A DNA stretch of 64,000 bases, from assembly GCA_025617745.1 (NCBI GenBank), contig CM046856.1:46863049-46927048 (forward strand), in the 5' to 3' direction. This DNA comes from Heliocidaris erythrogramma (lineage: Eukaryota > Echinodermata > Echinoidea > Camarodonta > Echinometridae). Below are positions 4,858 to 64,000 of the stretch, in pieces (position 1 is the first letter of the stretch; the number at the start of each line of letters is the position of its first letter). The position numbers and the translations under genes were made by a program. The notes beneath the pieces are model-generated. The model saw only the letters and a list, made by a program, of their open reading frames with translations, was not told where the DNA came from and searched no databases.

Positions 4858-5088
4858 ATCTTCACAACACTTCTAACATTCCAGAAGTGGAGATCATCAG
4901 CCTATTGGAAGAGCAGATACCGCTGTACACTCTCCGGGCGGACACTACCTCACACTACAGCTATGAACATGATGATTGGTTGGGACCGGCTGCCACGGCC
5001 GGACTGGTAGCCTCCGGTCAAGACATGGACGACGATGATCGATACATCCTGTCGTCAGAAATGATGGAGGAGACCCTCAAGTATTTCA
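4858..5088 (+). CDS. TRAK1: TRAK exon A: N-terminal HAP1_N-type segment
   Basis: Encodes [19 protein letters not shown], then a Tyr/Asp-rich stretch (YEHDDWL) and EETLKYF, matching the N-terminal region of the long TRAK isoforms. The acceptor is a pyrimidine run ending ag at 4856-4857; the donor is a|gtaagt at 5089. The exon enters at codon position 2 and leaves in phase 1 (the last base starts a codon). Joined to 34052 it reads ETLKYF-T-LCGDRVV. It needs an upstream phase-1 exon, not found in 1-4857. The isoforms that start downstream lack this whole segment. Confidence 0.92.
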
Positions 5089-17000: not shown

Positions 17001-20000
17001 CTACTCTGTATAATGTCATGGACTGGACACACCAAATGAAATGTGGTTTATAAAACAAAACCAAAAAGAAAAAGAAAAGAACGAAGGGACATCTCCTTGG
17101 AGCATTTTTACAGCAGCTTAACTGAATCACTTTCTCCTCTTGGCATCATTGCAATAGGGAAATGTGTGAGAGAAGCTCTTTGACATGTCCATCTGTTTGA
17201 AACGATATTGTTGGCCTAGATGCATCCTATGTTTACAGTGGCGAAATTAACATCAGTCCAGCATTATGACGTTTTTGTGGACATTCCGGTTTGTGTTGGA
17301 TTTGGAAAATGTCACTCATTGTGGTAGCATTTCTAGCATGGGCTGATATAACTCATCACTTTTTGTGGAACACGGCCAGTCTACTATACACAGTGTGATA
17401 TCTTTACACCGAAGGAATATATAATTTGGAATAATGGCTCCCATCTTGTACTAATCATGTTTGTGTTAGATTTTGACGGACTCTCGCAGGAGAGATTATG
17501 AGTAGTTTGGATAAAGGAGATAAAGTAGAAGATCCCCTTGCTTGGATATATGACGAAGAGGACCTCAGAGGTAAAGTTGATTTAAAACACATAAATTATA
17601 ATCTTATTCATAGGGCCTTATTTAGCATTCGAACAAGGATGTCAGTTTTCTTGAAATTTCATGATTAAAATATTGTTATTGATAACTACATGTACATGTA
17701 GCTGGCATCCCTCATAGCTACATAATAACCATATATATTCTAGGATTTTACACAATTCATTTGCCAGAAATTTTTATGCCTCTGCCCACCAAAGTGGTGT
17801 CGGAGGCATTATGTTTTCAGGTTGTTCGTACGTATGTCCATCAACTGAATTAAGGCGGAGGCATATAGGAGATGCAGTCGCATTCATCTTGTTTTACTTT
17901 ACTTCCTAAAGTAGATTGCACTTTTCAGGAAAAATCCTTTTCTAAAGGGGGGGGGGGGGGGGGGGGCGGGAATTGTACCAAATTCCAAATTTCTTTTTGT
18001 TTTTTTGGGGGTAAATAAGATAAAATTCTTTCTCAAAAATGAATTTATAAATCTAAATATCAGATAGATATAGAGGAAATGTAACCAAAAGGTGGAAATC
18101 TTAAGTTTCCCCTAAGCCTTAGAGCATAGAATTATTCTATTTGTTCTTTTACATGTAGGTAAACATTGCAATATTCAAGCACGCAGATGTACAGTACAGT
18201 CCACATATGCTTTGTATCAGTTATTAAAAATAACTTCATTGTTACATGGCAAACAAAACGATCTATTCTTCTCACACGCCTATTGTTCATATTGCAACTG
18301 ATCAACTTTTTTTAACCTTGGTCATAGGCATATTGCTCAGTGGAAAAATATTTCTCGTTATCAACAAGTGGGCGTTGATAAGATATCGGGCTCTGTGTAA
18401 GACAAATGTGTAGTATTTGTGAATTAATACACACATTTGTATGTGGTTGAATGGCTGTTGTATCTTGGTAGTGTATAGGGATTATGTACATTGTATTGGA
18501 TTGGTAAACATTATATATCCACTGGATGCTTGATGTCACTTCTTGGTTTTGATAAAATAAATGGTATTATTTTAATGAGAAAGGAGATGTGCATGGCTCT
18601 GATCATGGGTACACTTAATGCGCCTTAACCCTATCCCATGATAATTTAATGTTTGTTTGTTTAAAGGATTAGGCAATCATATTTTGAGAGAGTGAATAGT
18701 ATGAGGAAGCTTACCAAACCATAACTAGTTTAATAAATAAGGTTATTTTTTCTTGGTGCACCACTAATCATGAAAAATTGCTCATATTTTTGAAATAAAA
18801 TGTTACCTAGGCAACACTCATTTTTGTTGTCTTACCATCAATAATTTTATTAATTTTTAATGTTTCGTCAGTGGAATTGAAGAATAAACTTGTGTGAATG
18901 TGTCCAATGTATATATCTTTCACAAAACCCAGAGACATTTCTGGTAACGATGATGTTCACTTTAGTTTAAGTTCATAAAATTTTGTTCGGTGTTTCCCGT
19001 TTGTTTTGAAGAACCCGATTCGATACTATTAATGAAGAAAAGTCAGCAAAACATTACTAGATTAGTTAAATCTGATGCAAAAAGCACACAAGCGATGATA
19101 TATTTGTCCCTAAATTTGTGCAAAATTTATAGTGCAAAAACAAAATAACCACCTCTTTTTCGTGTCAGATATTATGAACGCAAACATGACTCTTGATTAC
19201 GCCCGATTGTTCGTGGGAAGAATTTAATTGGGCGGAAATTGAAAGTGACATTGTCTGGTAGAGCAACAAATCTTAGGTTCATATTCTGTTCTAACTTCAT
19301 GTAACTGTGTTTGCATAATTAATGCCTCTTAGTTCACATGAGTTGAGGCCTACCTGCATGGAATGTATTGGATTATTCTCTTTCAGTTGAGACTGCTTTG
19401 GAAGTAATTTGTTCCTAGGTTTGGAATGTGGAAGAATGTTTGTGAGGTAGAGAGTGAAATCTTAGGTTCCTATTAGGTGTCAGTATTTTGTTTTCGCTAT
19501 ATCCTCACTGCATTTGCATATTTTCAGTAGGGAAGTTTGATATTGGCTATTTTTAAGGTACATTTTTGAGGTACATTTTACTAAACAATTCATTTGGTTT
19601 TGCACAAGTGCAGTTAACCAAGTGATAATTGCATACCCCTGATACCGAGTTATGAACGAAAGATTTTTAGAACGGTGAACTTTGGTGACTCGTTACCAAT
19701 TGTTGATGAAGTCTGGAGGTCCAGCATTTCAGGTTTCTCTGCTGCAATGTTTGAACATCAACTTCATAACACTTTCCCTGTCTTTTAGTGAGTTTGAAAT
19801 TTTCCCTCATATGTAAGACTAGTGAACCCTAGATCAGAGCCATGCACAAATATAAATAAGAAGCTAAAGAAGAATGAAATGAACAATGAAGAATGAAAGC
19901 ATTGTGAAAGCATTATGAGTTTACGAAGTAATGTCAGATTTAGAATTTGCAATAATTTACATTTTCATTTATGTTAATAGAACTGTAACTATATTCAGGC

Positions 20001-23000
20001 ACCATTACACATAAATATTATCTGGCACTGCACTGTTTAGGTTGAAATAATGTCACTATTATTTTTTCTGTAGTGCCTTTCACAGGAACTTAGAAATTTT
20101 GCTATTTATACACCTGAGTTGAGAGGGACAAATGTTGGCAAAACACCCTTGTCCAAGGATGTACCAGTAAGCACCAATCAAGGATGAAACCCAGGACATT
20201 TTGTATGAGAGTCGAGAGCCTGCACCAAATGCTCTCATAATTTATTCACATGTGGTAGATGAAGAGTACAAAACGTAATCACTCGCGAAACAGCCTGGTT
20301 AATTAGTCCAATTCGCGAAACATTATGTCCGCGAAATATATGGCGTATACAGTACCTCATGAATGGATCATTGAAAACAACTTCTTTGTGTGTTGTCTTT
20401 CACCCTCTATTGAGAGAGTTGCTTCTGGAAACAGTTGTCATGGCAATACTGTAAATGAATATGGCCTTGGGTATGCTATGACTGTGAGGGCAGTCAGGGC
20501 ACTTTAGCTGGTTGTATACGATCATTGCATGTAGAATGTATGTGAATGCTATACAGGGATGGGTATTGATAATGCACACAGTGAAACTCGTGACTTGCCA
20601 TAAGTCTGTAAGGCAAGAGAATTCGATAGGGGAACTTGAGTCTTGAGGCCATGCTTTTAAAAGGTACAGAATAGGAAAAGAATGTATACCTTAATATCTG
20701 GAAAGGTAGAAAATAGCATGTGGTTATGTTTACAGTTTTTTTATTTTAGAATATAGGCTTGGAGAATAAAAAGAGTCCACCTGAATCCCTTGAAAGGAAT
20801 TTACCTAAATCCTGTAAAAAGAATTTTCCTTACCGGTAATCCTCTGTGATTAAAATCTTTGGAAAGAAAAGTGTGTAGCAAATTATGCTTAAAAATTGAA
20901 TTCATGATATGTTGGCATAATGGTCTTGATGTTGATGATGCAATGCATATATATTGGCTAAATGTTTTTCTATGTGAATATATGCTATGTGGATAATTGT
21001 GATTGATATTTCCTGGGCTTGAAATCAGTGAGAGCATATTGCGATAATAACATTTCACACCATTAATGTGCTGTATTGTCTGGCAATAATGTAATTTAGG
21101 TTTCTCAGGCTTAGAAGTCATTGAGAGCATATATCCGCACAGATTTTCCAAACATCCTCACCTATTGAAGCAATAACGAGGGTGTAATTAAGGCCATCTT
21201 GAATTGTTTTTGAGTGCTAATTGAATTACCTGCTTCCCCCTATGTATAATCACCTGCATGTCATGGTAACTGTAATTGTCTATTTAAGGACATGGTATAA
21301 TGGTGGTAACACTGAATAAGATACCTTGTGATTTAGTAGTCCAATAGGGTCTCATGTTCAATTTCTTGGCATTTTCATGTGATAGCCAGTCTCTTGGATA
21401 GGTATCATTTAACCCTGAGATCAGAAAAGTTGCAAAATGGACCTTAAAGGGATACCTCACCAGGAGGCCGTGGGGAATGTCAGGATTGCGTGAGTCCCAT
21501 TCACTCATACACAAAATTTGTGCGTCGAACGCGTCCGTTGGACTACTAGGATTACTTTTCGGACTGCATGAAGCCGACCGAAGTGGAGCGTGCATGTTGC
21601 GCGGCGAACAGCCTGTTCGAAGTTTGCTCGCGCGGGGCACAGCATGATCAGGTAACGATCACACGTGCCCACTCGCGGCATAAAAACCTCCACAATCTGC
21701 GGTTGAGTATCCCTTTAACCCATTCCTTACCAGTGATGGCAAATACTGCCCAAGAGTAAATGTTCCACTTTATATGTTTGTAAGTTTGGACTAAAATGAG
21801 CTATATCTTTTGTCTTATATTGAAAAATGAAAATATGCTCAAGGGCAGTTCCAAGCTATTCTCCCCTTTGGGGTCAAAATTTCAGACTCGTCCAAATATG
21901 GCAATATTTACCTTATTTTAAAGCTAAAACCTTCAGTATTATGATTCTCTTGTAATTAACATCATTTAACGTAGAGGGCGCTAATAGGATTTAAAAAAGA
22001 TAACTCCCACAGACTTTGTACACAGGCTGCCCACGTACAAAGTGTATGGGAGTTTTCACTTTTTGAACTTGTAAGCCCCCTCCTTTCCACAAACTTTCAA
22101 CAAATTGTAAAGTTTTGTGCTTCCCAAATATTCAAACACTTTTTAATTTGTAAATGAGTCATTAATCATGAAAAGTAATTTTCCATAGTATAGTAATAAT
22201 GTTTTTTTTAACAGAAATTACCTGTTTGCATGCATTTTACATACGGACAAATTGTCCCGTACGTCACATGCAGACCATCAGATTTGCATCTGTTACGCAA
22301 CAGTAACATGTGGCATATTTTTTCTTCATGGTTTCTAATGCCTGAATAGTTGTGGAATTGATGTGTCAAGAAAAGAAATTCTCACTCTTGATGATTCAGG
22401 AGATTTTTAATGACCATTTTGGTTATAAAATAAACTTTTCTCAGGTCCCGTACGTCACAACGCATACTAATTAGAATTGAACCTCGTTAATGGTCATATT
22501 TTAAAAAAAAATTCATTTATTTTAGAGGTCCTAGGTAGCTATTCAAACATCAAAAACGATTTTAATATGTGTCTTCTATTTCGAAATCAGAAAGGTTTAA
22601 ACTCTCTGATTTGTCCCGTACTTCACAGGTCAAATAGCTTGGACCTGCCCTCTGTCATAGCGTAAACTGCATCTATAGATTTATTCCAAAGATTCAGCCA
22701 AGTTATCACCTTCTAAAGAGAAATTTTGTCTCTTTTGTATTTCTTCAGTGGAAAATAATCAAATCTCTCACACATGTTGCTGTTGAGAGAAAAATCACCG
22801 CAAGTTTGTTCTCACGGTTATCTTAATATCTATTTTTTGATGGATATTGCATGTTACAGCACTTAATCATTAGTAGTACCATTAATTAATCAAGAGAATT
22901 GTTGTCGTTGTTGGTTGTGTGAGACTAGGCCTTTAACTGTTTATGTATAGGTAGCTACAATGTAAGTCCCTGCTAAAAACCAGCAAGGGTCTGTGCCTGC

Positions 23001-26000
23001 AGAATTTTTCAGAATTTTTAAAAGGACCTGAAAATCTTCTTATCTTGGGCTGTTTACGTAAATTCACTTCAAGCTTTAAATGAGTGGTGATCCAAAACTT
23101 CCTAAACCCTGGTAATTATATCAGGAGATTAGCAAAATCCTGTTATCCTCATTTTGAGGCAGTACGAACGAATGTTACCAGCCAATCAGCTATCTGTAAG
23201 AGGTCGACAGGCACATCAAACAAGTTTGTTAACGCAATGTCACCCATGATTCACCTTCAGATTGGCTCAGATTTTTCGGTGTGGACGTGACAAAGTAACA
23301 CGCGCCACTTTCTGAATCGTGAAACCATTTGCAAGCATGAAGTCACGAGAGGCAGACGCTTACAGCGTCGATGTGGCTGAGCTGTCTGCCTCATTGGATT
23401 TTTAAGAAGTCAGTTTTACTGGAAGTCAGATCCTGAGCTTGGCAAATGGATTTTCTGTAGAAGTTCAGATTCTAGAAGTTCCTGACAAACCATATCCTGT
23501 AGAAGCCATTCCTACTGGGGAAAACTGCAGAGCTAACTTTCTATTTGGTTTCTTTGAATGTAGGATGTGTGAAAACCCTTTGAGACATTCACTGTTTGCA
23601 AACATCTGTTTTGTTTGTTTACAGAGGTTTGATTTATATTCCCTGGAAGTTGTACTGTTCAAATCATATTTTCATGAAAAGGTGACAGAACTGAAGCTAT
23701 ATGAACTTTTGACTGCAATTTCTATCATTATATGATATGTGGATGGTGGAGAAATATCAATATTTTGTTTGCTCTGTGCAGAACTAATCATAAACTGATA
23801 AGTACATGTATATTGGTGTGGCGTGTACGCTGCCTACGTGATCAAACATCAGATTTACCAGAGCCCTCCAAGGTAGAAGGCTTTCCTGCCAGCATCTTCC
23901 TGGATCATTGGTCCCGAGTCTCGTAAAACAGAAGAGAATTAAAACAAACTAAATAACAAAAAAAAAAGAAAGAAAACAAATGAAAACCTCTTCATGATTT
24001 TTTTCTCTAAAATCAAAACTCATTGAACTCTTTGAGGTTGAAGAGGTGGATTTTCACATTAATTGTATGAGTTTCTCAATAAATGCTTATTTCCATTTCA
24101 AGATTGCATCCTTGGACATTTTTTGAACAGCCTTGAACTCTGCAGGAATTGAGAAGGAACACGTTTCCTCCTTGGTGCATATGTGATTGCCATACTGCCG
24201 AAGGTCTTCCATCTTACTATCACTGACATTTTTACCTGAACGAATACCTGTTAGACTATGACTATCAACACTCTTTATGTCATGGCAACTTTTTGAATGT
24301 CGGACAATTGATGGACATCATGATCTAATAATATCCAAGTGCCTGTCCATTTTGAGACTGTCACAGCCGGTAACGATATCTCCGTTGCCAGGTTTTGTGA
24401 ATTCTTGGAATACAACCGGAACTTTCTTCACTTAAGGAGATTGGACCGCTCAACAGACATCACTGTTAGAGGGGTCTTTGTTGATCTCATAAAAAGGAGG
24501 TCAGATGTTTGAGTTGATAGGTTTTGTCAGGGTTTACCAGGTTCCTTGAGGAGATGTGAAGGGTGCTCAAGATGGGCAGACTTCAAGGTGAAGATGCTTT
24601 TCAGCAGCGCACAGGCTGCCTCAGGCGCAGGGCATCAATAGGTTGGTAACATCATTTCCACTTATTCCGTTGTTCATCCAATGATATCAAACATTTTGAG
24701 AATTGCTTGATAGTGCATTGTTTTGTCATTGTATCCTTTTTTCTAGATATCGTTTGAGTGTTTCTGTTCATAATTTGATTTAAGTGTAAATTTTGTGTGT
24801 TTTAAGATATTTTTCAAATATTTATCAGGGTAAGGGTAAGGGTATCTTTGCAGGTTCCTTATCACTATTTATATTGTTATGAAAGAGTTTTATCTGTAAG
24901 TAATGTGGAGCTGAAGAAGAATGAAATAAAATAGGACAAGATTATGTTTTTTTAATCAGAGAAGAAGAAAAATGATTTACTGTAGGACTTGTACTCATTA
25001 CATGAAAACCTGGAAAATGCAAGTGCTTCAAAACAATTTCATGGTGTTTCCAATCTGTTATACTATTAACTCTGGAGGCCTTAATTTGTGCACTTTATTT
25101 GTAAATTAGAAAATATTGTACAAATTGAGGATTTAGGAAGAGATGAACTATTGCAACCTAATAGACACAGAAATGTAAATATAAAAAGAGCATGTAAGAA
25201 TTAGGTATGAAAAAAGGATGTCAGCCATCATAGTCTCTATCTGGAACGACATGTGGTTGACAACATATTTGAAGTCCATATAACATGTGAGCAATAAAGT
25301 CCAAAACCTGTGAGTTGGAATATTATCATATGACATCATGATAAATATAATCATTCTTCTTGTACTTTGGTCATGACCCTGGTAATCAAATAACAATTGA
25401 GATTTGCTCAAGTACTACATCTACATGCAGCGCGTCCAGACCCCGCACAGTTGAGAGGAAACCAGCAAGCTCGGCATTTCCGCCTGGACATCCTTCGTTG
25501 GGTGCTATCTCCTGGTCTCTGTAAAAACCAATCTGTGGCTGGACGTTTCGCAATGGCATTGAAACAAAAATGGACATGCCACCGGAGTGTGCCCTACCAG
25601 ATATTCATCTGTGATTAGTGGAGCACTTTTCGTGCTCCTCTACAATTCTTGAATTTGGAAGATCCACCCAAAATTTATATCTTCTAAAGGACTTGCATAC
25701 TGAGCTTCTCGCAAGATCAATACTTCATACCTCTACAGACTCTCATATCAGAGTTTCAGCAAGTACTCTATGTTTTGTTTAGTGTAGGAAATACAACAAA
25801 CTTTGAGTTTTTACTGTCTACCTCTTGTAAGACAAGACTTTTTACTGTGTTTTGTAACGGGTTATGTACTACTTTGCAGGAAACCAAACTAATGATTTTG
25901 CTCACAAACTGTGTCGCATGTCAACTTCAGTCCTGTGATCAACCTAACCGCACCATTGCTCAATTTCCTCCGCTTTTTGCATGCCAACATTTTTCCTTAT

Positions 26001-29000
26001 ACCTGTGTATTTTGTATTTAGCAGAAAGCGGAACTACATGTAGAATGCGTTTGGAAAGTGTTCAAGTCTACATTGACAACTAGAGCTTTTTAACGTGTTT
26101 ATATTTCTCTGTATGATTCTCCACTCAACTGAAAGCACTTCAGAATATCAGTATCGTTATAGTGCCTGGTAATGATGAGACACTGTTCTAGTGGTTGCAT
26201 TTCATACATTTTATTGATTCTACCATCATCAAACTGTGATGAAGCTGTTCTCTGAGATTTATAAACTGGAAACCTGTTGACTGTTTTTGTACATCTTTCC
26301 TCCAAATCATTCTGCGAATCAGTCTGCAATCGACGCTTGTGGGGAAAAGCCACTTGTTCAACCACAGACCTTCTGTAACCACCAGAGGTTTTTGGTGCAA
26401 CATCTGTTGCACTCACATCTCAACCCATTTTCTGAAAGGCTTTTGCCAAACTGCTAATCCTCACCCATAGATATATACGCTGTAAACTTGTTAATCCTGC
26501 AGATCATCACCGAGACATGAACCGATAAAGTCCGACATATGCTAAGCCTCTTCACGTCTTCATTTTTCTGCAAAACTTGTAGGTTTACAATTTGGAAACA
26601 GGTGCCCGATTTAGTATCCTGATTCATCTCCTGTTGCTCAGCAGAACAAAAAGAATCAAATTGACCTGGAAATCTACTTAAATCTTAGAGAATTCACTAT
26701 CCAACTTAAAGCAATACCTCATCTTGATATGTTTTAATCCTGAATGTGTAAAAAAACTGGAGAAGTTCTTTTGCTCTCAGAAAGAGTATCTTAAGGACAC
26801 TTCTTCAGGTCTGTGAAACTTGCATGCCCTTTAATATAGTTGTCCTCAAACCAAACATATTGTTGAGAGGCAGGTATACCTTTTGACTGACTCACTTTAA
26901 CTATAATAGAAGGAGTACATTTCACTGACAATGCGAGAACCACATTTGAGTCCAGTGTGAGACTGGTTGTAGATATTGTTTTTGTCATGGAGTACCCTTT
27001 AACTGACGTCAGCATGAAAGACGAATGGGACTTCATCAACTCGTACCTGTACGATTGTTTAGAGATAGGAGATCTCTATTGTAAGTACCACTCTCTATAT
27101 AGTATGTCACTATTTAATGAAATAGTAGGCTTTGCCTTCTATACATTGGTAGAAATCGGGCAGAGTGTAGGCCTATTAGTATTTAGAAATTGAAGTTAGC
27201 CAGTGAGCTAATTGTATGATCTCTCTTTCCAATAAGCCAGTTCGGGGTTGCAATCTGAGCATGAGCAGATAAAGGTCATCTGTACCAAATTCTAAAACCC
27301 ACTGACACTAACATTCGATATGTGCTCATGAATGTCATGTAATCATTATTCAATTATGCACTAATGGTGCATTCCATGATATCCAGGTGGAAGTATTCTT
27401 TTTAAAGGGGGAAACAAAAGCTATTCATGAGGCACCTCTATCACTCCCAGAGTTATTTTTCTGAAGTGCACATAAAGGGACCCTCCATGTCTAAAATATC
27501 TGTGGATATTTGGGGTCATTTGTACAATCTCAGTACCATCGCTAACCCCGAACTGGCTTATTGCATTGTATGTCATTAGTTGAAAAATATTTGAAATTGG
27601 ATTTATAAAAGGGGACTCTGTTTTTGGTTCAATGCTGGTATTATGTTTTTAGAAATTTTACTTGATTACGATGTTTGATTACTTTTTAAAAAGGATTTTG
27701 AAATTTTGAAGAGTCCGATTGCACTTGAAGGTGACTTATGATTAGACACTCGTGTAAAATCGGGCATGCATATTAAAGAAGTTAACTCAGATGAGTTGAT
27801 TTCCATTGCTCTCCAGTGGGAGATGCATCAACAAAACACATTTTTACTCAGTCTGTGACCTTCACCATTTAGAATTTACATAAAAATCATGCTTTTCATG
27901 GTTTCGTAGGAATACTTCAAGAGAGATCTATAGAAAAAAACCCACCTGCAGAGCTGCCAACCAGTACGGATTTTCCGTATTTGTTACGGAATTCAAACAC
28001 AAATACGGAAGTACGGATTTCCTCTAAAAAGAAATCTGATTATGCACTATTCGTCTTATACGTTGCGCACATGTATTTGTTATCACTCATACTTTCACAC
28101 TCATATTGTATTATTTTCGCTGTTCCCGGAACTCCGCACTGTGTACGTACCTAAAGTGCATACAGAAAGGAGACTGCGAATGTACTTTCACCGCACACTC
28201 AAACTTCTAGCTCAAGCTATGAGCTCAAGCGCTAGCGGTGCGGCTGCTCTTACACACCGAGGCGTTAGGCAGCCGGCCAGCGTAGCCCGCGGGCGGCATG
28301 GCGCGGCTGCTGCTTGGTGTAAGGCGGCAGTATGTGCAGCTGCTCCGTAGTGGAATCGAAAGGATGAATAGGGAACGTGAGTCTTTAGCTGGTTTTTTAT
28401 GTTTCTTCTAGATCTAGATAATTATATTATTCCCATTGATAATTATTGGGGTGTCATAAAGAGTAATTTTAGGACATTTTTAGATCTAACTTATACAATT
28501 TTGGTGGCAGTTGCAGTTTAAAGATTTGGTATTTGGGGACTTGCAAAAAATTACGGATTTCATCACCAAAATACGATTTTTCAGCTTGGCGTGTACGGAA
28601 AAGCTTGGCCAGAGGTTGGCAGCTCTGCACATGTTATATTAAGTCGTATAATTAATTTGCTCATATATTTCGGCATTTAATTCCTCTGTGATCCCTGCAA
28701 TAAATGTGTTAAGTGTCCTGAAGAGAAGGTTGAGTGCTGGGTAAGTTTTAAAATAACTTGGGAGCTTTCTCATTCCTCTTATGTCAATTTGGAAGGACCT
28801 CATAGTGGAAATGTCCCCTGAAAAGGATTGCTCTTCAAATGCCCTCATATTCAAAATAGGATGAGAAATAGCTGAAGTGTTGGGGCTGAACATTCATGCT
28901 ATATGTGTGTGCCGTCCCATATTTATGTGTGCAGTGTGTGTGCTTTTCAGTGAGATTGTGTCAATTTCTCATCATTATGATGATTTCAAAATTATTTATT

Positions 29001-32000
29001 TTTTACCTTTCCCAGAACTCAAGCTTAATAGGAGAAATTTGCCTATAGCACTAAAACATTCATCTACTTCAAGGATAACAAGCACATGAAATCTGGAGTT
29101 AAAGGAACATCCTCATTCTCAACATGTAGTGTCATGCGTTGTGTTGTAGTTATTGAATTGGAATATTCTCATGATACATTTCCTTCTCGGCAATTATGTA
29201 GGCCTATACTGATAATAAAAATAAAACCAATCCTCAATTCAAGAATGATTACCCTTTCAAAATATTAAATACCGGTAGCTAGAGATATCAGGCAAGATTG
29301 TATAGCATATTTGTGATGTAAATTAATCAATTAGATATAATTGCAAGGCAACAAAATTTGTTATCCTATTGATATTAATCGATATTGACATACAATAGAA
29401 TCCATTGGTTACCATGGATATGCCCTTGGCCCCTGGATGATGAATTTATTATCAAAGAAATTGCTGTACTTAAAAATCCCATAATTAGATATTAAATACT
29501 GAAGATAATCTTCAGTTGTAATAGCAAGAAAGAAATTGAAATGAAAGATGAGGAAATCAACATTGATTTTCCTAAACGTCCCCTTGTGCTAGATATATCT
29601 TTTGTTCCATTCATGAATTTCAATGAATTTTAGTGTAAATATCTGGAAAGAAACCCCAAATTGAGGCTAAACTATGCGCAGTGAAATTATTGCACATGCT
29701 TATAGCTTTTGTTTGATCTTGCTTTGAATGCCAGGGATATTTCTTCTCAATTTTCTAATCATGGAAATCTAAATTTGGCTTTAAGCATATAGACCTATTT
29801 TTATTTTACTTTTCATCATTGAATGAGGGAAATGTTTTATTGACCAGAACAACTGTTTCAGGCCTATCTGAAAGTTTACCCTCATGATTAGGGCCCATTA
29901 ATGCTAATTGATTCAGCTGTGTATTGTATTTCATAAGAAGAAATATATTAGGTTTCACATACTCAGATTTTTAGAGATGAATAATAGCTTTATTTATAAT
30001 TTCCTGGTTTGCCTTGGCCTAGATCTGTTGTAATAATTCATCTTGATTTTAATCCCCCTTGCGATTTTCAATCCGCTATTGATTCCGCTGTCGTTCTGCC
30101 TTCCTTAGAAGCCCTTCGCATCGCTTTGCTTTCACATCAAGCAAAAGATATACTGCTATTTCATGGAAGCGGAATAGAGCGCGTTGCTCAGAGCGGAAGT
30201 ATGTCATCTGCCCCAATACATTGCGTTTTTTTCCCCTTCATTTTGCTTTATTCGGTGCGACTGTTCACATATAAAAACTGAGGCTTTATCAATTCCGCTT
30301 TTTGCTTGATAGCGCTTTCAAAACCACCGCTAGAGCCTAGAGGTAGTCACAGACATCCCGCATCATGAGTGGAATATCTGACTTACTACCCTTTCACATC
30401 AAAGAGTTATCTGGCCAAAGCACTGTTGATTCTGCAATATTGGCTCAATATGAAAGGGGTAAAAGTATTACATAATAATCATATGAATTATATCTTATCC
30501 ACCTAAGAAAGAAATGCTTGATAATGATTCTATCCCAGTAGTCATAGGAAATGTGTATTTGTCATCACTAGTATTATGGTACCTCTGTATTGTTTTTTTA
30601 TTTTCTCCATGCCTGTTATCAATATTTTAATTAATTTGAAGTCAAAGTAAATCAGGAAGAAAATTTATAAAAGCATTAGCAAGGTATAATCATTGTTACA
30701 CATGCTCATAAACATTGCCTTAATTTTTGTGAGAAATGTTGACTAGGGCTGCATGATATCACTATGCTAATATTCGATATTGAATTTTGCCAATATACGA
30801 TATATCGCCTTCAAGCGATATTTGAAAATGTATCGTCGATATAGGTACACTAGCGAGTTTTAGAAATGATTCAGGAAATAAAATGTCATAAATAAACATG
30901 AAAGAGATCGTGAAGGATCTGTGAAGTATTCTGACAAAGAGAAGGACACAAGCTAAGTCACGAAGGTGTCCACTAGCACGCCTAGGGCACGAATCCCGTA
31001 TTTTTAGAGCGATTAAAAACATTTTGCTCTCCTTAAAAATGTTGTAATCTTATTTTCTTATGAATCAGAATGTTTTATTCAATTTAAATAAAATATGATT
31101 ATGACTGGGCGGGTAACCGTCTCGAGTTGTGCTGAATTTTAGGTGAATGGAAATGTACACTTTTGGGTGGTGACGATAAATCCCCATATCGACGATACAG
31201 AAGCTGACGATTATCAAATAACCAAAAATGTGAAAAACGTGCAGCCCTAATTAATGTGGACTATTCCTGCCTATAAAAACTTTGCAACTGCATGCCACAA
31301 ATTCTTTTTTTTTTAAGTAGTTGGGAATATCAGTCATGCTATTTCCATATATTTTCCTCTCAAAGCTGGCACTGCCATTTGCTAATTCTAATGCTAGGAT
31401 CATTTTGAATTTTTCAGTGTGTTGACAAAGTTAGTGAAATAATCAGAATTTCTTTGGAAACAGATAACACATGATAATACAATGATAATGATAATAATAA
31501 TCTTAAGTATTATGCTGTGATTAGTATAATACTGTGACTATGCAGCTGTGTCTATATGCTCCTCCCAAATAAACAAAAAAGAACCTGATAAAAAAGAGAA
31601 ACACAGAGAAGTTGCATATGATATATGGATTTCCTGGACAAGAAATATAAGCAATAATGGCTGCAAATTAGTGCAGCTAGTGCTTAAAGGGTGTGGTGTA
31701 TGACCTCAACAAATGAACTTCATGTGTAGTACACATAGTAAAATGACTAATTAGTTTAATTATAGGGATATTGGATAGCTAGCAAGTACCTCCCTCGATC
31801 TCTGTGTTCAATTTCCATATCTTTATGACAGTTGTTATCTGCAGAGGAAATAGTATTAATGAAAGTCATTGGATATTGTTGTGCACTGGTGTGGTTAAGA
31901 TGTATTAGATTCGTTTGTTGTTGTATGTAGTATGTTTAAGTACTGCTCATACTGATCTATAGATAGTTATATACAGAAACTCTTCCTTGATCACATAATT

Positions 32001-35000
32001 ATTTTTTAAAGTGAAAGAAGAAACTTTATTGAGTCATTGCAAAGTTTGTTGGAACTATGTACAGATTTATTCAATCAAATATCTTTCATTTGAGAGTTGG
32101 CTTTAAGCATTGTGTTTCCCAATCTTGTAAAATTATTTTATCTCATCAAAATATATATGTCAGGACTATAAACTAACACTTGGCATTGTTGAGTACCATA
32201 TTTCATCAGATAGCTTTGCACATAATTGTTTACACTTTGCAGTCATTTGGTATTTCAATAGAGTTTAAAAGGCAACAATGTACACTGTAGAGACTGGCTA
32301 TTGTTCTAAAGAAAGTTCATATACAGTACCAGGAAGAGGAAGTCATATTGTAGTGGAATGCACATCATATACTGAACCGGATTCTTATGGAAAAATGAAT
32401 GTACACACACACACACACACACACACACACCCCCACACACACACGTTTACATGGCTTTACTTCCGAGGACAACTATTGTTCCTCTATTGTTACTCGTCCT
32501 CGGACAGTCGACGGAATAAGGCATAAATTCATTGTTCGACGTTCGAGGACTATTGTCCGGCTTCCGAGGACCATTGTTCTCATGGGTTTTTTTTTGTTCT
32601 CTGTCCGAAAATGTCCTCGGACATAATGCTAAACAAACGCACACACACACACACAGCACTCACACAGCACTCAACCCTTTCAGGACAGGATTATTTATAG
32701 GCTAAATTGATCACATTTTCAAATTGGCAACAATAGTATTTTTCTTTTAGTGCTGCATGGTTCTAATAAGGTGTAATGTCTTTGAAAACAAAATACAGGG
32801 TAAGGGATTTGTTGAAATGTTGAAAGAATTGCCAATTGTTAAAAAAAAAATGTTATTGAACCTCTCAATGTGTTGCCAATTTTAAGGATTTTAAAGCTTA
32901 TTCTCATTTTTTCAAACCCTGGCATATATGGTCATGCAACAAAAATGGACATAGTGTATGCAGAAATTTTTGCTCTTTCTGCTCATGGATCTGGTATATT
33001 TTTTAAAGCTCTGAATCAAAAGTAATTGAACCAAAACCACAAAATGTGGTAAATTGTCTCGAAAGGGTTAAGGGCTTTATTTGATGCACCAGAGTGGAGA
33101 GAGATTTAGCTCAGGATTGCTGTGAAAAAGATCTGAAAAAAAAATTAAATGAGCTCTTAAAAAACAAAACACAATTTGACAATGAAGTAGATTTTAAATA
33201 AAATCACTGCAAAGAAGTCTTTTTTTTTTTGCATTGATGTATATCCAAAGAGTTACCGCGAACACAAAAAGTATTTTTGGACACCAACTCTGTGGTAATG
33301 TCAGAAATGTAAGAAATGTAAATCCATAAGAATAGTATGACAAAATATGACAAAATATGAAAAACTTGGTTCCTATATATATTGGAAAATGTAATTGCAT
33401 TTACATATTTCTTTACCCAAAATCTGTGAAGTCCAGCTGTGAAGTTGTTCATCATTTAAAGCAGAATGTTTGGGTTTTTTCATGGAAGTAGGAATTTCCC
33501 GTCTATTCTTTTTAGGATGTTGGTGACATGCCTCTTCCAGAAAACAGGAAACTTTGCAGCAAATAGCCATGGCCTATACCAAGCTTTTTCAAATGGATTG
33601 TGAATGATAGAAATAGATTGGGAATAAGAGGAAGAGAGGGAAAAAACAAACTTATGTGATAAAACAACCCATCTTTTCAAAGTGACCAGCCATAGATTTT
33701 CTTTTCAAATTCATTTGACTGCTATCTCATTTTTTTATTGGTATATTCCTTTTTTTTTCCTTTAGAGGGCCAAAAGAGACAAAGAGACAGTTGATGTTTC
33801 AATATTTTGTTTATTCGTTTCTTCTATTTTTCAATGCTACATATATGTGGTGATCAATTGAGAAGAGACAGTTCATGTTTAAGCATTCCTGTATTTTTTA
33901 ATTCTATTCCCCAGCACTGTGTGGTGATCAGTTTAGAAGAGACAATTACAGTTCAATCATTTCTTTTATTTGTTGCTTCTATTTTCCAGTGCTATGTCGT
34001 GGTCGTGTGGTGTTTAATAATTTTGTTTTCTTTGTTTGTTATGTTTTACAGCACTATGTGGTGATCGTGTGGTGCAGATGACCAAGACCTACAATGACAT
34101 TGATGCAGTTACAAAACTACTGGAAGAGGTCAGTCATTTTCATTCTTTCTTCGGCAAATATATTTTGTAATATTCACATCAGTTTGACAGATGCCAAATT
34201 CAAGAGCTCTAATATATCTAGCAGAGGAGTTTCAAACTGGAAAGTAAGCTCTCTGCCATGAATTCTACCTATCTTGAAATATTGAACTTCAAATGCTTGT
34301 ATTCATTGTTACTGCTTTCCTATGATGCATAAAAGCGCTGTAGATTTTAGAAGTTAGTTGTAGAGTTTTCATATACAAAACATTTATTGTTTTCATATCT
34401 GTGTGGGGTAAATGAAAGGTCTGTTGTTATATGTGTGTTGGAGTACAGAAGGAGAAGGATTTGGAGCTAGCAGCAAAGATTGGCCAATCTCTCCTTCAAC
34501 AGAACAAGCAACTTGAGGGTCGGATTGAATTAACGGAAGAGAAGCTGACAATCGTAGCTGATCAGGTAAAAATCTCTAACTCATTTCACCCTGATGTCCT
34601 TTCTTCTCTTCTTCATTTCGTAGTTTTGTCCTTCCTTCTCAAAGCTGTTTGTTGTTTTTTTGTGGAAAATGTAGACAAATTTACTAAGAAATATATTATC
34701 AGTTTTAAAGAACCATGTTTTATGTAGATTTAGAAGCTTTCACTGAGATTCAGAGAAAAAATACATGAATTTGATAACTTCATTTGTCTTTCCTTCTTGT
34801 CATGGAGTAATTAAATTCAAGTAGAAATAATAAGTGATGGCATGTTCCGGGAAAGTGAAAAGAGAAAAAAAAAAGTGAATTGAATATCAGGTATGGATAC
34901 TGAATGGAAAAAAAAGAGTCTTGAAAACTATTATTAGCTGTATTGAAAAGTGGAATTTGAATTAGAGAAGGTTGAATTTTATTTGTTTTTATTTGTTTAT

Positions 35001-38000
35001 TTCTGATATTTAGACAAGGGTGACTCATTATCACCAATAGTTGTGGTCTTCCACGTGGCCCTGTTAACGATAATAAGAAACAATAGTAAAAAAAACCCAA
35101 AACCAACACTAATCATGAATATAAACTCACAACAGCAACAAAAAATAAATAAGAATATTTTTCTTAGCAAAATGCCAAATCAAGCTAAAAACATACATGT
35201 CCCAGGGGCTTATATCTATCATTATACTAGGATTTTATAGTATATAGATTATAAGTGGATTGTAAATATGGCGTGTAAGCTCTTAGCTTAAATGTTTTCA
35301 TCAAGGTATGGTTGCATGAATGTGTACTGTGGATTGTTGGGACTTAAATAAATTCAATGCTGTACTTTTCTTGTACTAGGCGTAGAGTATTTTGAATAGG
35401 GAAACAATGTAGTAGGAATGTTTGTTGTCTATGCTACTCGCTATGCAAACTTGCTTGCATATGGCCTGTAAATTGAGAATATCATTGAGGCATAATGCTT
35501 TTCAATACCTGCATTTTGTTTCTAAACTGATTTATATAGCTTTTTAAACAGTTGAGATGTTAATGCGAACACTTTCAACACAGAAAATATAACACTTCAA
35601 ATGAACAAATAGAGAAGTGAACGGCGCAGAGATTTCGACAAAATATTGACCAAGCGCGTTATACTCAAACTCAACTTGCTTGAAAGTCATGTTCTCGCAC
35701 AAAGAAGGTCCACATTTGCATTGAAGTATTAGAAGTTTGTGATTGGCTAATAAGAGTTTGTTACGCATATCAAGTATGAAGTATTTGTAAAGAGGATCAT
35801 GTGATCACTAATGGTTAACATGTGAATATACGAGGTGTACATGTGATCTTCCTAGCTTCTTATGAACTCTGGCCTCCTTGAACATTGAGCACATGAGTGG
35901 GTGATATGTGGTGTTGATATTGATAAGTAAATGACAAGTACCAAATAAAACAGAAAAGAAGAAGTCTTCATATTTTCTTTAATAAAATTACACATTAATT
36001 TCAAAGATATAATCCTTTTATACATCGTAGCTTTTCCAAGAATTAGTAGCGCTGTAGTTGCTTTCTTTGTGTGATTCTTTAGTTAATACTTAAATAGAAA
36101 TTAATTCAAATCTAGTTGTGGCTGTGATAAAATTCTCATTAAACTAAACAAGAATTAATACAGAGTGTTAGAAAAAATAGATGATAAAGATTAATTTGAT
36201 CTGGCAAGAAATATGATAGAAAGTTCATAATATCTATGCAGTAAGGAGAGGAATATGAATACCCTTTATTACGATTGATAAATAGAAAGGGAAAGTTAAG
36301 CCCCGGGCACACTGCACGATCTGACTACGATGCGATTTTGGGAAAAGTTGTTATAACATTTGATATGAACCTTTAAACATGTAAAATCTTCGTGATCAAA
36401 GTTCCGAATAGTAGTATGAATACTAAAATTGAAATTCCAGGCTACTGCGAGCCCCCTTGTAGGAATAAAAGCGAATCCAATTCCAAATCGTAGTGACGTC
36501 ATACCAATCTTGCGATCGACTAAGATTTGAAGCCGATTTGGCCTTTACTCTAACCAGAAGAATTGCAGTTAACCAAAATTTCGATATTAGTATTCGTATC
36601 ATTATTCCGAACTTCAAATGAGATAATTTCACTTTATAAAACTTTCACATTTAATGCAAACTGCATTTTTTTAGAAAATCGTGTCGCAATCGGATCGTAT
36701 AGTGTGCGCCAGGCTTAAATGTATATCATAGTGTATAGTGACAAAGTTTTAACATTATTCTGATTTTCATGATATGGTTTGTTGTCTAAAACATTATTAC
36801 TAGAAGCAGTGTTCACTGAAATTTTCTTCTTTTATTTCTTTCTTCCTTCTTCAGAACACCCAGTTCCGGCATGACTTAAAATTGAAGGAGGAGCTACTCC
36901 ACATCTATACCAATGATGTGGATCATAGTGACTCAGAAGATGAAGCAGTATGGTAAGTGACAAGATGATATTACTCTACAGCTAATTGAAGTCGTAACAA
37001 CCAACAGATACAACACAACAACAACAACAACAACAACAACAAAAACAATGACATCGAAAAAACAATGACATCGACAGGCAATAACTGATATGGTTTTTAG
37101 ATGAAGGAGTAATTGTAAAGAGGGAAAAGGTTTTTTTTTTTTTGGGGGGGGGGGAGTTAAAATTTAGAGTAATGTTAATTTGTTTATAGAACATGATGTA
37201 TTATAAAAATTGCTTTCTGATAGACCCAATTTTTAAATGGTATGAAGTTTTACTTCCTAGTCATAGAGTCACAAAAAGCTATTTTTTCGTTTTGACATTT
37301 TTTATACCATATCTCAAAGGAACATGGTGAAAAACATCCAGAGCCAAAATTTTATGGCAATTGGCTCATTGGGCCCGAGATATGGCCGCATGAATACCTC
37401 CTTAGCCCCATTGAAGTCAGTGTTAAATTGGCCTGGTTCTAAACTGTTAAGAACCAGGCCAATGTACACTGACTTCAATGGGGCTAATTAGATATTCATA
37501 TAGCCATAACTTGGGCCACCATGAACTGATTCATGTCAAATTTGATGTGTGAACGTTTTCCATCATGCTCTACCTAAATATGGTCATAAAAATACTGAAA
37601 TACAAAAATCAAAATTTGATGACGTCACACTTCGGTACTCTATAGCATTTTGCATGTAGGAACTTTTTCCGTTTACATTTAGGGTAATAAAAATTTGCCT
37701 TTATACAACCATTGTTTAACCTATAGATAAACTCACATCTCGAGATTAGAACTTTTTAAAGTTGGAATTTAATGAGAATGTCAATTAAGCTCAAGGAAAA
37801 TGAGTTCCTGAAAACATTTATTACTCTCAAGAATCATTTCTGAAGTGGTAAAGATATTTATTTGTTTTTTGTTTCTTTTCTCAAAGGAACGAGAAGGGAA
37901 AGGCTACCATCCAGTCCAAGTACATCAACATTGACAACCTGCAGAAGAAGATTAAGAACCTGGAAGAAGAGAATCTCCATCTCAGGATAGAGACAGCCGA

Positions 38001-41000
38001 GCTCCGCACCACCACCACTAACATCGAAGAGAAGGAGGAGGAGCTGGTCAGGGACTGCTTCAGACAACTGAGTAAGCATGGGTTTCTTGCAGTGGCGTAG
38101 TGTGGGTCCAGTCAATGGGGTTGGGGGGGGGGGGGGGGAAGTCAGTTAAATTTATGAAAACCTTGACAAACTATAGGACAGTTATAACAAGAAGGTTGTC
38201 CAAACATCAAATTGGAATCTCAGTTTTACAACTCATCATATGGCAGTGCTTGTACTTGTCTCCATTTTGCTTCACTGTAAGTTTATAACTGCTTGTTAGC
38301 ATCCCAGCTAAAACAATCAATTCTATTAGAAGTCAGCAAAACTTCAAAATCTCTATGTCCATTCAATGGATATGTAAGAGATACTTATTGTTTGTAGGGG
38401 TAGGAAAGAGGTTTTATTTGGGATATTCTTTTTGGGATACTCAGCTCTTCATGCTTAAAAACATGAAATTATTACCCCAACACGATCACAAAGACTTTCA
38501 GGAAATCAACCTGAGTCAATTTCAACAGCCTGGGGGTGTTTCATCAAGTGTTCTGCAGTGATTTTTACTGACAAATTTGCTCTCAGCCAATCAGATGCAA
38601 GGATTTCAGTAGCTAAAGGCCCGGTCACATCGCCAGAACTTTGTTGGAGCGTTCCTTGAACAGTGGGGAGAGGGGGCCGAATTTCGACAACGCTCGTCAC
38701 CGCGCACAAAATGGGGAAAAAATAGAAAACACGGGCGTTGCCTTAGCGGTGCACCGCTGAAGCCGGCGTTGCTTTAACATTGGTTTAACGGTAGCGAGCG
38801 TTGGTCCCGCTCCGACACCTCCATACCAACGCCAAACCAAAGTTCATCACCGCAATGGATCGCTGCTTCAACGCCCGACACCGTTGCAGCAATCCCGTGT
38901 CCGCTCGTTAAACGCTTATAACCGCTCCACCAAAGTTTGTGCAACGTTTAATCACCGCCCGGGCAAAGCTGGCGAAGCAGCGGTGGTCCAGCATTCAAGA
39001 TTTCTGCGTTGGCGTAGCGGACCCAAGCGTCCACGAACTTGCGTCTAGCGGTGCCAAACTTTGACTGGGCGTTGTTGGAGCGGTGGTGAACTTTGCCGGA
39101 GTGGAAAATTGCCCGCTCCTCACCGCTCGCAATATTTTGTGCAGCTCAAAACTTTCGGAGCGGTAGGAGGGACCATCAGCGGTGGCCGAGCGTATACGGC
39201 GATGCCTTAACGGGGGCCAACTTCTGTTAAACGGTGGTGAACGGTTACGAGCGGTGATGAATTTTTTCACCGCTCCAGGAACGCTCCAGCAAAGTTCTGG
39301 CGGTGTGACCGGGCCTTTATAACAGTTATTGCAACTTGTCATTGATGACAAGTTTTATGAAACAGGCCCCTGGTGCATCAACCTAATGAAATGGGCAAAC
39401 ATTGCAGTGGCAATTTACACAATCCAATCCTAATTTCAATGGGTATTACAATAGGGGTTTGGCATTTCCATTGATGAGCTGATTTCTTAAAAGTTTTCTC
39501 CAATTCTGTTCCCAAACTATCCATTAGAATGTATGTTGAAAGCTTTCATATCCCTTTCTTTGGTGTCTTAAAGGAAAGCTTGAGTTCTGGAAAAGGTAAA
39601 AATAATTTGTGAGCTTTCTCATTCTTTTTATGTTAGTTTGGAAGATTATCATTGTAGATATGTCCCCTGAAAAGAATTGCTCTTCAAATGCTCTTACATT
39701 CAAAATATGCCAAGAAACAGCTGTAATGTTCAGGCCGAACATTTGTGTATAGTCCCATATACGTACATGTATTTATGTGTGCAGTGCATGTGACTCTCGG
39801 CAGGATTGAGTCAATTTCTTATCATTTTGGTGATTCCAAAAGCTTACAGCATACACCAATTCTTATTTGCTATATAATAACCTTTTCCAATGGCTTTGAG
39901 ACAGTTTCTTTCACAATTCAATCTGATGACCAGAACTCAACTTTATCTTTATATGTTTTAAGTAGTAATCTGTCTCCTGTACATTTCAAAAGAAATTCTT
40001 GTTATTGCACTCCATCTTTAACATCTCTGCTTTGTTATCTTTGTTCAGGTGAAGCTCGTGGGACTTGTGAGATTTTGACGGATGAGCTGAGCAAGAAGTT
40101 TGAGGAAAACATGAGGCAACAAGAAGAGATCACTTATCTTCTGGCGCAACTTGTTGACCTCCAGCAAAAGGTTAAAAAGGTTAGTGACCTCTATAAAACT
40201 TAGTTTGAGTGGTTTTTTGCTAAAAAGGCTCTTCAAAGTTGCCTCATATAAAGTGTTTGAAATTTAAGGATCATAACAATACTATGATTATAGAATCTGG
40301 AACATTCATTTGGAAATTGACAGGAAATTGACAAGCCCAGGGCCCCATTTCATAAAAATTGTTATCAATAACAATTGCAACAGCTCTCAGCCAATCAAAT
40401 GCTTGGATTTCAGTAGCTTATAACAGTTACTGGGCCCAGAACTGAATGAATTACTAATATATGTGACAGGTGTATTGAATTGAATACTGGCTGTGGACTG
40501 GAGGTCTCAGCATCATCACTCCTAGTTAATGTGTCTGTACTTTCTTGCAGCTCTCTGTGGAGAATGAGGAGATGAGTAGACATCTTACAGCTTCCAAAGA
40601 AGCCCAGCAAGATTTAATAAAAGAGGTAAGAAATGCCATGCCAAGCTTTCATGTATTTTTCCTTATGTGTAACATTCCCCTAAAGGGAAAGTCTACCCTG
40701 ACATCGAGTTGTTTAAAAAAGAAAAGAAAAGAAGCTCATTACAAGTTTGAGGAAAACTAAATAAAGAACTAGAGTTTAATTCGTCATGAGGACGAATTAG
40801 GTGATCTGTCTTTCAATTTGTACGATCATGATTGTAATCAGGATGATCATAATAATGGGAAAATGCTAAACTGAAGATAGGAAGTCAAGAATGCCATGAA
40901 TGAAGATGCTTCTTGAGGAGAGGAATGTAGCAAAATGTGTAACGGTCATTATAAAATGATTATGGTGATGATGATAATGGTGATTATGATGATTATAATG

Positions 41001-44000: not shown

Positions 44001-47000
44001 TTGAGGTAAGAACTTCAAACTTGGTACTAGTATGTATCCCCATAGAAAGAGGAAGTGATTAGATTTTGGGGTAGGTAGGTCAAAGTTCAAAGGTCACAGA
44101 GGTCAATTTACATGAAATTACATGGAATTAGTGGTTTTTACCACCGTTACCGCGATATCTCAAGAACTGTTTGAGGTAAGAACTTCAAACTTGGTACTAG
44201 TATGTATCCCCATAGAAAGAGGAAGTGATTAGATTTTGGGGTAAGTAGGTCAAAGGTCAGAGGTCACAGAGGTCAATTTACATAAAATTACATGAAATTA
44301 CTGGTTTTTAGCCTAATTATTGTTATCAAATATTTCTAGTTTTATATGAAAATGAAATGAAATAAATTTTTCTGTCTCCTGTGCATTTTAAGTGAAAAGA
44401 TTTTGTTGGACCAATCATTTTGTTGGACCAATCCTTTTTAGAGTGTACATGTATGCCATACATTTCCAATCTGGTGATGGCGGAGGCATAAATTCCGACC
44501 GCGCGCGGTCGAATATTCATCTAGTTGTAGTCTGTATTTATAATTGACTATTTTTGTTTATATTTAAGAAAGGCTGGAGAGGGACAAGATTTTTTTCCCA
44601 TTTCATGTTCTTAAATTTTCCAGAGTTGCATTTGATTCCATCATCTGAAATGATTGTAACTGAACTTTAAAGTGCTATCAATCACAACTAGGCAATTGCT
44701 ACCTTTGCGATCGAGCGGAGGACTTGTGATCAATTGGGATCTATTACAACTCTTTATGAAACGGGGCCAGATCTGAACAGCTTAATAGTGTTTATGACAT
44801 TTGTTATTCCTGCATATGATTCCTGATAAATTGACAAACTATCCTTCTTTCATTTCTGGAGAGGTTATTTGAAATGGGATTCTCTATTCACTATGAATGG
44901 ACTGTTGTTTCTTTTCAGTTGATTGAGACAAAGGAGAAGTATGAGGAAGTGTACACCATGTTCCAAGAAGCGCAGGAGACGGCAAAGAAATCTAATCGCA
45001 GTTCCATGTCTCATGGCGGCATTGGCTTTGGCACCTATCTGAACCCACTACCAGTCTTCCCTGCAGTAAGTTAACCCTCCCTGTTCTTAGATAGTGGAGG
45101 CAATGCGCCCACTGGAACAATTTGATGTGGCCCACCAAAAATATCAAGTAAAAAAAAAAAACGCCCCAAAACATGATAAAAAAACCCAGTGGTTTAGTTA
45201 GTTTTTTTTAATGCTGTAAATGTATTGGTATGTACAAAAGTCTCAAAAACTTTTGCTTGCTCATATCACTCGCTCACAAAATAGTCCTTCATAAATCATC
45301 TGTCACTCTGTGCTACCATGTATGATTTGAAAAAACAATTTTGATATTTACAACAAACAGGGAAGGGTAAATATATTTCATGAGAATGGATTACATTTGA
45401 GGGGGATCATGGTTTTTTGTACCTGTTGACCACCCGAGATGGGCCATGTTTATGACGTATGTATATTCAATGACTCGCCATTAATTTCAGAAATATTTCT
45501 GGCCCATGTTACAAATTAACTAAAGAACCGTGTAATAGGCCTGTACCATGTAGGGATGCACCAATTCCCACCCCAAGGGTGCGTGCCCCAGATTGTGTAG
45601 GGTACTGATGCTCAGTCCCTCTGAGTTTTAAGGAGGGGGTTGTTTGATGGGCGGGGCACTAACAAACACACGCATCTCATGAAACACATTTTAGATTCAT
45701 TTCTATAAACCGTAACAGGACAAATCTCAATAAAAACATATTACGATGTATCTCAATGAAGCATTAAAAAGGTCAATGTACATGGGTAATGTTTTTATTT
45801 GCCTAAAGCGGAGACATTCTATCGTGAATGATCTTATCATGTTGATTGTCAATATCATTTCATGGACTATGTACCAGTGGTAAATGATGATTTATGATAT
45901 GCTTTAATATAATATATTAAAATCATCAAGTGCATGTAGAGATAAGAGAGATACTGTAGGACAGTTTGCCAAGGATGTTTCCAAGATAAGTAAATATTTT
46001 TGATGATGGCAAACGATAAGGGAAAATTTTTCAGGTGAAGAAATTTTTACATGACAAGATAACCTAGTTTTGACATAGAACCTCAAATTTTATCTCAAGT
46101 CATTGGCATCAAAATTGGTAATTTTATCAAGATATTTGTATTTGTGAAGATTTGTTCTGAAGAGCACATCCTTCAGAGCACCTATGTGGAAAAGATTTTT
46201 GTAAAATACTGTCTAAGCAAATAAACTAAAAACCTGAGAGGAAATTCTTTTACCAACTAAAAAATTGCAGGATCTGAAACTGGTTGGTTTTTACATACAT
46301 TTACTCATGTTTTCAACATTTCCAAATTCATTTTTAACAATTCCATTCAATTTTAAATCCTTTTTCCAGTCACATGGCAAGACATGGATTTTTTTTCAGG
46401 TCAGAGCTATAATTAGTCTGAGGAACATGATTGCACCTAGTCTTATCTTTAATATTCAAACTACCTTTGATATTGATGTAGTTGGAACGTGACTCTCTTT
46501 CTTAAGGAGTGACAAACTGATAGTTTATCTCTGAGTATGTAGTCATGTTCCCACGGATGCTATGATGGAAATGTGCTATTTACCAAGCAGTGTCAGTGGC
46601 TTTTACTGTACAAGGTTCTTGGAGAACAATGCATGTACTCGCAAGGTTGTGCACCTCTGTAAAAGTGTAGTGCGAGTAAAGCGTTATGCCCTTGGGAACA
46701 TGCCTTTGATTCTATTTAAGCACACTTGAAGATGGAGTGGAACCACTTATGTGAGGTGATGTGAAGATATTCACAATGACCTGATCTGCATCGATCAATG
46801 CCAATTTAAGGATTTTAAAGCTTATTCTCGTTTTAAAAATCTCTGGCATCAAATGCAATATGGTCATGCAACAAAATTGGACATAGTGTGAAATTTTTGC
46901 TCTTTCTATTCATGCGTGTGGTATATTTTTTTGAGCTCTGAGTCAAAAGTTATTGAGCCAAACCACAAAATGTGGTCAATTGTCTCGAAAGGGTTAAGCT

Positions 47001-63591: not shown

Positions 63592-64000
63592 TCATTCATC
63601 ATCATCATCACGGAAGACTAGCGTGTTCTTGTCCCCCTCTCCTTCAGCAGGACTAAAGGTCGGTGACGTGGGAGGAGTTATGAGGTCCATCTCCGGTAGC
63701 GGGACCATCCTCGCCTGTCCGTTCATCTCTCCTCCAATCTGCAGCTCAGGAGGGGGTGGAGGGAGGTCATCTGGAGGAGGAGGAGGGATTGCAGAGGCAT
63801 CTATCCCACCCGATGGGACCCCCATCTTCTTGGGCATTATGTACATGCCATCGTCAGGGCTGGTTGTAAGGGGTGGCTTTTCGAGCCCAGTGTTGGGGTC
63901 ATAGATAGGATCGTAGTACCCCTCAGCAGCTAGCTCATCGTCATTCATGTAAAGGTTTTCTTCAGTGTTGCCGTTCATATTGGCAAAGATGGGGTTCTCA
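63592..64000 (-). CDS. C-terminal exon of an unidentified gene: acidic, proline-rich tail (partial)
   Basis: Minus-strand frame open from the window edge to a TGA at 63592-63594. It reads ENPIFANMNGNTEENLYMND, then GYYDPIYDPNTG, polyproline runs IPPPPPDDLPPPPPE, DLITPPTSPT and an acidic end FRDDDDE. The 136 codons have no in-frame stop and use codons like a real exon. NPIF and YDPIYD motifs plus polyproline suggest the cytoplasmic tail of a membrane receptor or cadherin-like protein that binds SH3, WW or EVH1 domains, but I do not recognise the family. No acceptor is needed inside the window, so the exon continues beyond 64000. The gene is convergent with TRAK. Confidence 0.75.
   Translation of the reverse strand, partial: ENPIFANMNGNTEENLYMNDDELAAEGYYDPIYDPNTGLEKPPLTTSPDDGMYIMPKKMGVPSGGIDASAIPPPPPDDLPPPPPELQIGGEMNGQARMVPLPEMDLITPPTSPTFSPAEGEGDKNTLVFRDDDDE

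Follow-up and report, generated by a model that had tools for sequence, protein, structure and literature searches.

Does an urchin gene for the adaptor protein TRAK use several alternative start exons that all feed one common exon? We examined this question in a window of Heliocidaris erythrogramma DNA, a stretch of 64,000 nucleotides (assembly GCA_025617745.1, contig CM046856.1, positions 46,863,049 to 46,927,048; coordinates below are those of the window unless stated otherwise). An initial annotation had proposed four alternative first exons, here called A (4858-5088), B (17498-17570), C (27014-27080) and D (30365-30458), each joined in phase 1 to the acceptor at 34052 and each with its own promoter. 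Judged from its predicted protein, the gene is an echinoid TRAK (Milton) on the plus strand. HAP1_N (E 3.5e-94) was followed by Milton (E 3e-8), each past the curated cut-off of Pfam, which is the domain order of the TRAK/Milton family. When the 1.06-Gb genome was searched with the HAP1_N profile, four matches were found, all within this gene. The phase-1 requirement of the acceptor at 34052 was confirmed by the joined frame and the exon phases.

Exon C is a probable alternative start exon

Exon C (MEYPLTDVSMKDEWDFINSYLYDCLEIGDLY) spans 26987..27080 on the plus strand and ends in phase 1 at the donor ATT/GTAAGT. It lies between exon A (the PEVEIISLLEEQ exon) and the first common exon (LCGDRVVQMTKTYNDIDAVTKLLEE, 34052..34128, plus strand, called LC..RV below), whose phase-1 acceptor accepts both A and C, and it carries an ATG together with a phase-matched donor. 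P0004 (Lytechinus pictus), P0002 (Strongylocentrotus purpuratus, XP_011683969.1) and P0003 share an N-terminus that corresponds to the exon C peptide and continue at the identical residue and junction. In these three relatives, conserved coding sequence is thus joined to the common exon. The tblastn analysis of the window gave 77-84% identity between exon C and the relatives (E 1.4e-14 to 3e-15). When the database was queried with residues 1-42, of which exon C contributes 31, P0004 (E 4.7e-16) and P0003 (E 1.7e-15) were the sole two candidates. In an unanchored comparison with N-termini, exon C scored better than 300 of 300 shuffles. P0003 is probably a transcript, because its source contig of 3,343 bases is too short for introns of this size. 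Weaker relatives of exon C were also found. P0007 matched it with E 7e-4 (tblastn) and an anchored score of 62, and the starfish Acanthaster (P0001) has a recognisable relative with an anchored score of 39, which was reached by 0 of 120 shuffles.

The exon, its donor at 27080 and its phase were as initially annotated, but the start was not. An in-frame ATG is present at 26987, nine codons ahead of the one at 27014, and all three relatives start at the equivalent of 26987.

Several observations weigh against exon C. At the same junction, P0005 (Patiria) and P0006 (Asterias), both from starfish, have dissimilar N-termini, and gene prediction may be the source of P0002 and P0004. The donor of exon C scored a modest 1.68. 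B scored 3.07, D 0.52 and A 0.99, and the donors of 12 common exons ranged from 0.1 to 7.2; the donor matrix was not trained on this species. Codon usage did not separate exon C from chance frames, as 4 of the 24 frames in the chance set scored at least as high. The codon usage scores were -4.1 for C, -5.0 for B (four others at or above) and -6.5 for D, and this scoring was discarded as an exon test.

These results suggested that echinoid TRAK very probably has at least two kinds of N-terminus, a long form that passes through exon A and a short form that starts in exon C and is spliced to 34052. As deduced from the sequence, the short form would begin at ATG 26987 within the 29-kb intron after exon A, and the phase-1 acceptor at 34052 would receive the donor at 27080. 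In place of HAP1_N profile positions 1 to 48, the short form would then have 31 residues and one more that the split codon supplies; the Pfam match starts at profile position 49 in form C and at position 1 in form A. Exon C may have its own promoter and may be regulated by stage or cell type.

A second copy of exon C was not found among the best 40 of 339 candidates in the genome. Just 3' of the exon, from about 27216 (27216-27300 and beyond), lies a very young, high-copy repeat, and at least 40 other places listed were 95-100% identical to the final 70-85 bases of the query.

In the long form, exon A is internal

Exon A (4858..5088, plus strand) is bordered by AG and GT and has phase 1 at both ends. 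Its stretch was 88% identical to P0008 of Diadema setosum, a protein in which the exon A segment is joined to the common exon. A further exon was located upstream at 46857425-46857568 (contig coordinates), about 5.5 kb before the window, and shares 67% identity with the P0008 piece at residues 3-50; its donor was recognised by eye. Exon A does end in phase 1, as initially annotated, but it is not a first exon. An acceptor precedes it, it starts in phase 1 and an upstream exon exists. The long form would start upstream of the window and pass through exon A.

Phase-matched frames are frequent in the large intron

The stretches 17498-17570, 27014-27080 and 30365-30458 each contain an ATG, an open frame and a GT donor, and the length of each leaves a remainder of 1 after division by 3, exactly as claimed. 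The intron at 5094-34030 was scanned for other ATG-to-donor frames. With a length of at least 66 nucleotides and a donor score of at least 0, the plus strand had 13 frames in phase 0, 14 in phase 1 and 9 in phase 2, and the minus strand had 14, 13 and 13 in the same order. The phase-1 mean in 10 order-1 resamplings was 8.2; the observed count was 1.7-fold this value and not above that of the minus strand. Raising the donor score to at least 2 left 5, 3 and 1 frames on the plus strand and 6, 6 and 3 on the minus strand, with 2.5 in the resamplings. At a length cut-off of at least 54 nucleotides there were 94 frames overall, including 18 phase-1 frames on the plus strand (16 distinct ATGs), and the three annotated stretches came from these. 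The count of phase-matched frames is near chance, and the pattern alone is little evidence. We therefore rejected phase match as evidence by itself, because ATG-to-donor frames occur about equally often in every phase and on both strands.

Frame D belongs to a dispersed repeat

The proposed exon D (30365..30458, plus strand) lies wholly inside a dispersed repeat of about 400 bp at 30061..30465, which was delimited by its borders and its copies in the genome and resembles a miniature inverted-repeat transposable element. A search with a query from 30165 placed the repeat at at least 39 other sites when the best 40 of 100 candidates were scored. By eye, in the printed copies, its ends look like mutual inverted copies (CCCCTTTCA.ATTG). 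We examined 27 copies, seven from the repeat search and 20 fetched additionally. The ATG of D was present in 0 of 27, the donor GT in 22 and a stop-free frame in 18, indicating that the open frame belongs to the repeat and that its start codon is peculiar to the window's copy. The proposed donor, GGG/GTAAAA, is the end of the repeat, and a TATA-like string ahead of D is within the repeat and differs in the seven copies compared.

No carrier of D's own part was seen among the 23 proteins listed. For comparison with known N-termini, we selected 49 by pattern from 106 fetched proteins; the other 57 were dropped as being of the exon A type, too short or lacking the motif. In the unanchored comparison with these 49, the best score of D was reached by 142 of 300 shuffles. 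Exon D was rejected as an exon; what had been annotated as an alternative first exon is a frame that arose by chance within a repeat resembling a mobile element. Many copies of this repeat are 77-84% alike, and the openness of 18 of 27 over the D stretch may hint at a piece that was once coding or otherwise constrained.

Exon B remains a candidate

Candidate exon B (MSSLDKGDKVEDPLAWIYDEEDLR, 17498..17570, plus strand) has an ATG, an open frame and the donor GAG/GTAAAG in phase 1. It is single copy in the genome, the only candidate found being itself. Its start was absent from the best 100 of 186 candidate proteins; because these were clustered at 90% identity, isoforms with no other difference can be concealed among them. 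The initial annotation had likened B to a human TRAK1 start given as MSLRDKG; this string was not found in the literature searched and was not seen in the displayed N-termini of the fetched proteins.

Unanchored comparison with the 49 N-termini placed B at shuffle level (140 of 300). When B was anchored at the junction, its best score over all 49 was reached by 16 of 120 shuffles. We also ranked it anchored among the 94 intron frames. It came first against 15 teleost N-termini chosen by hand (91 of 3000 shuffles did as well), second against Acanthaster (36 of 3000), third against P0007 (428 of 3000), fifth against the urchin C type (104 of 3000) and eleventh against four hemichordate proteins, where 239 of 3000 shuffles equalled or exceeded its score. 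A frame at 28298, which has the best codon score, served as a yardstick. Its best anchored score was reached by 33 of 120 shuffles; when the 15 teleost scores were averaged, 3 of 120 shuffles reached its mean, compared with 2 of 120 for B. As there is no reason to believe the 28298 frame, its good result against teleosts weakens that of B. The anchored ranks of B were not counted as proof, because several comparisons were made and the 28298 frame also scored well. We place exon B slightly on the doubtful side of even.

Alternative explanations and motor binding

The exon C peptide could also be encoded by an internal, mutually exclusive exon in transcripts from the upstream promoter. The phases allow this, since exon A has phase 1 at both ends and a swap of A for C would preserve the frame; moreover, no stop interrupts the frame over at least 90 bases ahead of ATG 26987. 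However, P0002, P0003 and P0004 share one start, MEY. For human TRAK1, a transcript combining exons 2, 1B and 3 was not found and 1B was taken as an alternative start, according to the available part of PMC3208247. We consider an internal exon C very unlikely. Still less credible, to the point of being nearly negligible, is that B, C and D all serve as first exons and bring the N-termini to four or more. Each of them has the ATG, frame, donor and phase, and B is single copy and ranked first of 94 against the 15 teleost N-termini and second against Acanthaster. Against this stand the position of D in a repeat whose ATG is lacking in all 27 copies examined, the unanchored shuffle level of B and its anchored best score reached by 16 of 120 shuffles, the near-chance frame counts and the internal position of A. 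The core idea of the initial annotation was right, as database proteins of other urchins give good support to the joining of exon C to 34052. Of its several alternative first exons C is kept and B is undecided, A being internal and D repeat-derived, and four or more promoters were not borne out. Exon C as an alternative start exon is the reading we retain, and it corrects the gene model in two places, the start of exon C and the status of exon A. Of three phase-matched ATG-to-donor stretches, one was real, one was repeat-derived and one was undecided, showing how easily such stretches mislead.

A choice of motor by the N-terminus, perhaps tissue-specific, had also been suggested; on such a reading, some forms would lose kinesin or dynein binding. 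A review relates that a mutated fly Milton isoform affects transport to oocytes, from which an isoform-specific dynein effect was inferred (PMC9626967, in the part available), so that the N-terminus may have some influence. TRAKs have a CC1 box and a Spindly motif, which are needed for dynein-dynactin activation, and residues 100-360 of TRAK1 are enough for kinesin co-precipitation, as described in the accessible part of PMC10011603. By eye, the counterparts of the CC1 box, the Spindly motif and the kinesin-binding coiled coil fall in the common exons. Every form thus retains the motor-binding parts, and a motor switch by loss of a site is unlikely; in this respect the suggestion found no support. 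An altered regulation or set of partners is more likely than a motor switch. The exon swap would probably alter how the coiled coil is capped at its N-terminus, with effects on regulation, partners or stability, and the CC1 box, kinesin-binding coiled coil and Spindly motif would stay. In the AlphaFold model of P0004, the exon C part is a low-confidence helix running into the coiled coil; the mean predicted local distance difference test score is 48.6, and successive blocks within residues 1-30 average 36, 53 and 47.

The junction across animals

The junction was compared in 32 proteins without an exon A segment, hand-picked from the 106; P0036, which would have been the 33rd, did not fit the pattern. 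Seven groups were made by eye, with P0003, P0007, P0014, P0021 and P0026 included. Identity between groups was 0.04-0.22 at positions -16 to -2, 0.33 at -1 and 1.0 at the next two residues. Beyond these two, it was 1.0 at many positions and 0.23-0.38 at three of the first seven. Because common-exon searches and the pattern made the sample, conservation past the junction is partly built in, and the sharp edge is the informative part. In this sample, the N-termini of urchins, starfish, hemichordates, teleosts and crustaceans are thus exchanged at one and the same position.

A broader reading can be offered only tentatively, as we think it rather more apt to fail than to hold. The junction before LC..RV may be an ancient slot for swaps of the TRAK N-terminus, with the junction fixed and lineage-specific start exons in echinoderms, hemichordates, teleosts and crustaceans. 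Exon C would predate the split of urchins and starfish, B would be a second member, C-like or related to vertebrate starts, and the cap would tune the adaptor while the motor sites are kept.

Common exons and other features of the window

One open frame was obtained from 13 common exons (34052-54402), with GT-AG introns and agreeing phases. After the first, the other 12 on the plus strand run through the stop: 34449-34565, 36855-36952, 37887-38071, 40049-40179, 40551-40625, 44919-45065, 48834-48913, 50150-50341, 51008-51282, 51889-52044, 52495-52594 and 53109-54402. They are supported by GT-AG borders, phases and the joined frame, and are collinear with P0004. Form C was 86% identical to P0004, 83% to P0003 and 80% to P0002; P0008 was 64% identical over the common part. 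Among solved structures, the single chain match was TRAK2 in 9dgv. The last exon (53109-54402) contains a repetitive stretch of the MSSSSTPRMSS type, and its repeat number varies among urchins (P0002, P0003 and P0004).

Two other frames were observed on the minus strand. A 132-codon frame at 742-1140 looks by eye like a retrotransposon reverse transcriptase (KKGKSPGCDNI, VPVFKKGD) and had no Pfam match at E 0.1. At 63592-63978, a 128-codon frame, acidic and proline-rich, resembles a real coding exon, by eye of the cytoplasmic tail type; it had no Pfam match.

Comparison with known systems

A literature search for TRAK1 and sea urchin found no urchin TRAK paper, by title or start of the abstract, and the available text of PMC8077471 contains nothing on N-terminal isoforms. 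The arrangement itself is already known from human TRAK1 and fly Milton, and the exon C start is already present in the database entries of two urchins. These are Lytechinus pictus (P0004) and S. purpuratus (P0002), other species in which the exon C N-terminus stands at the same junction with 77-84% identity over the exon. Drosophila Milton has four isoforms with differing N-termini, according to the accessible part of PMC10450580, and is likened to the urchin gene by arrangement, not by sequence. Human TRAK1 has the start exons 1A and 1B, and the primers in the available part of PMC3208247 put 1B between exons 2 and 3. Exon 1B is likewise an alternative start exon in that position, spliced to the common part. 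The usage of 1B was measured in human tissue, whereas urchin exon C is known from sequence, and the two are likened by position, not by sequence. Exon C thus represents an echinoderm case of the TRAK N-terminal swap, accessible in urchin embryos.

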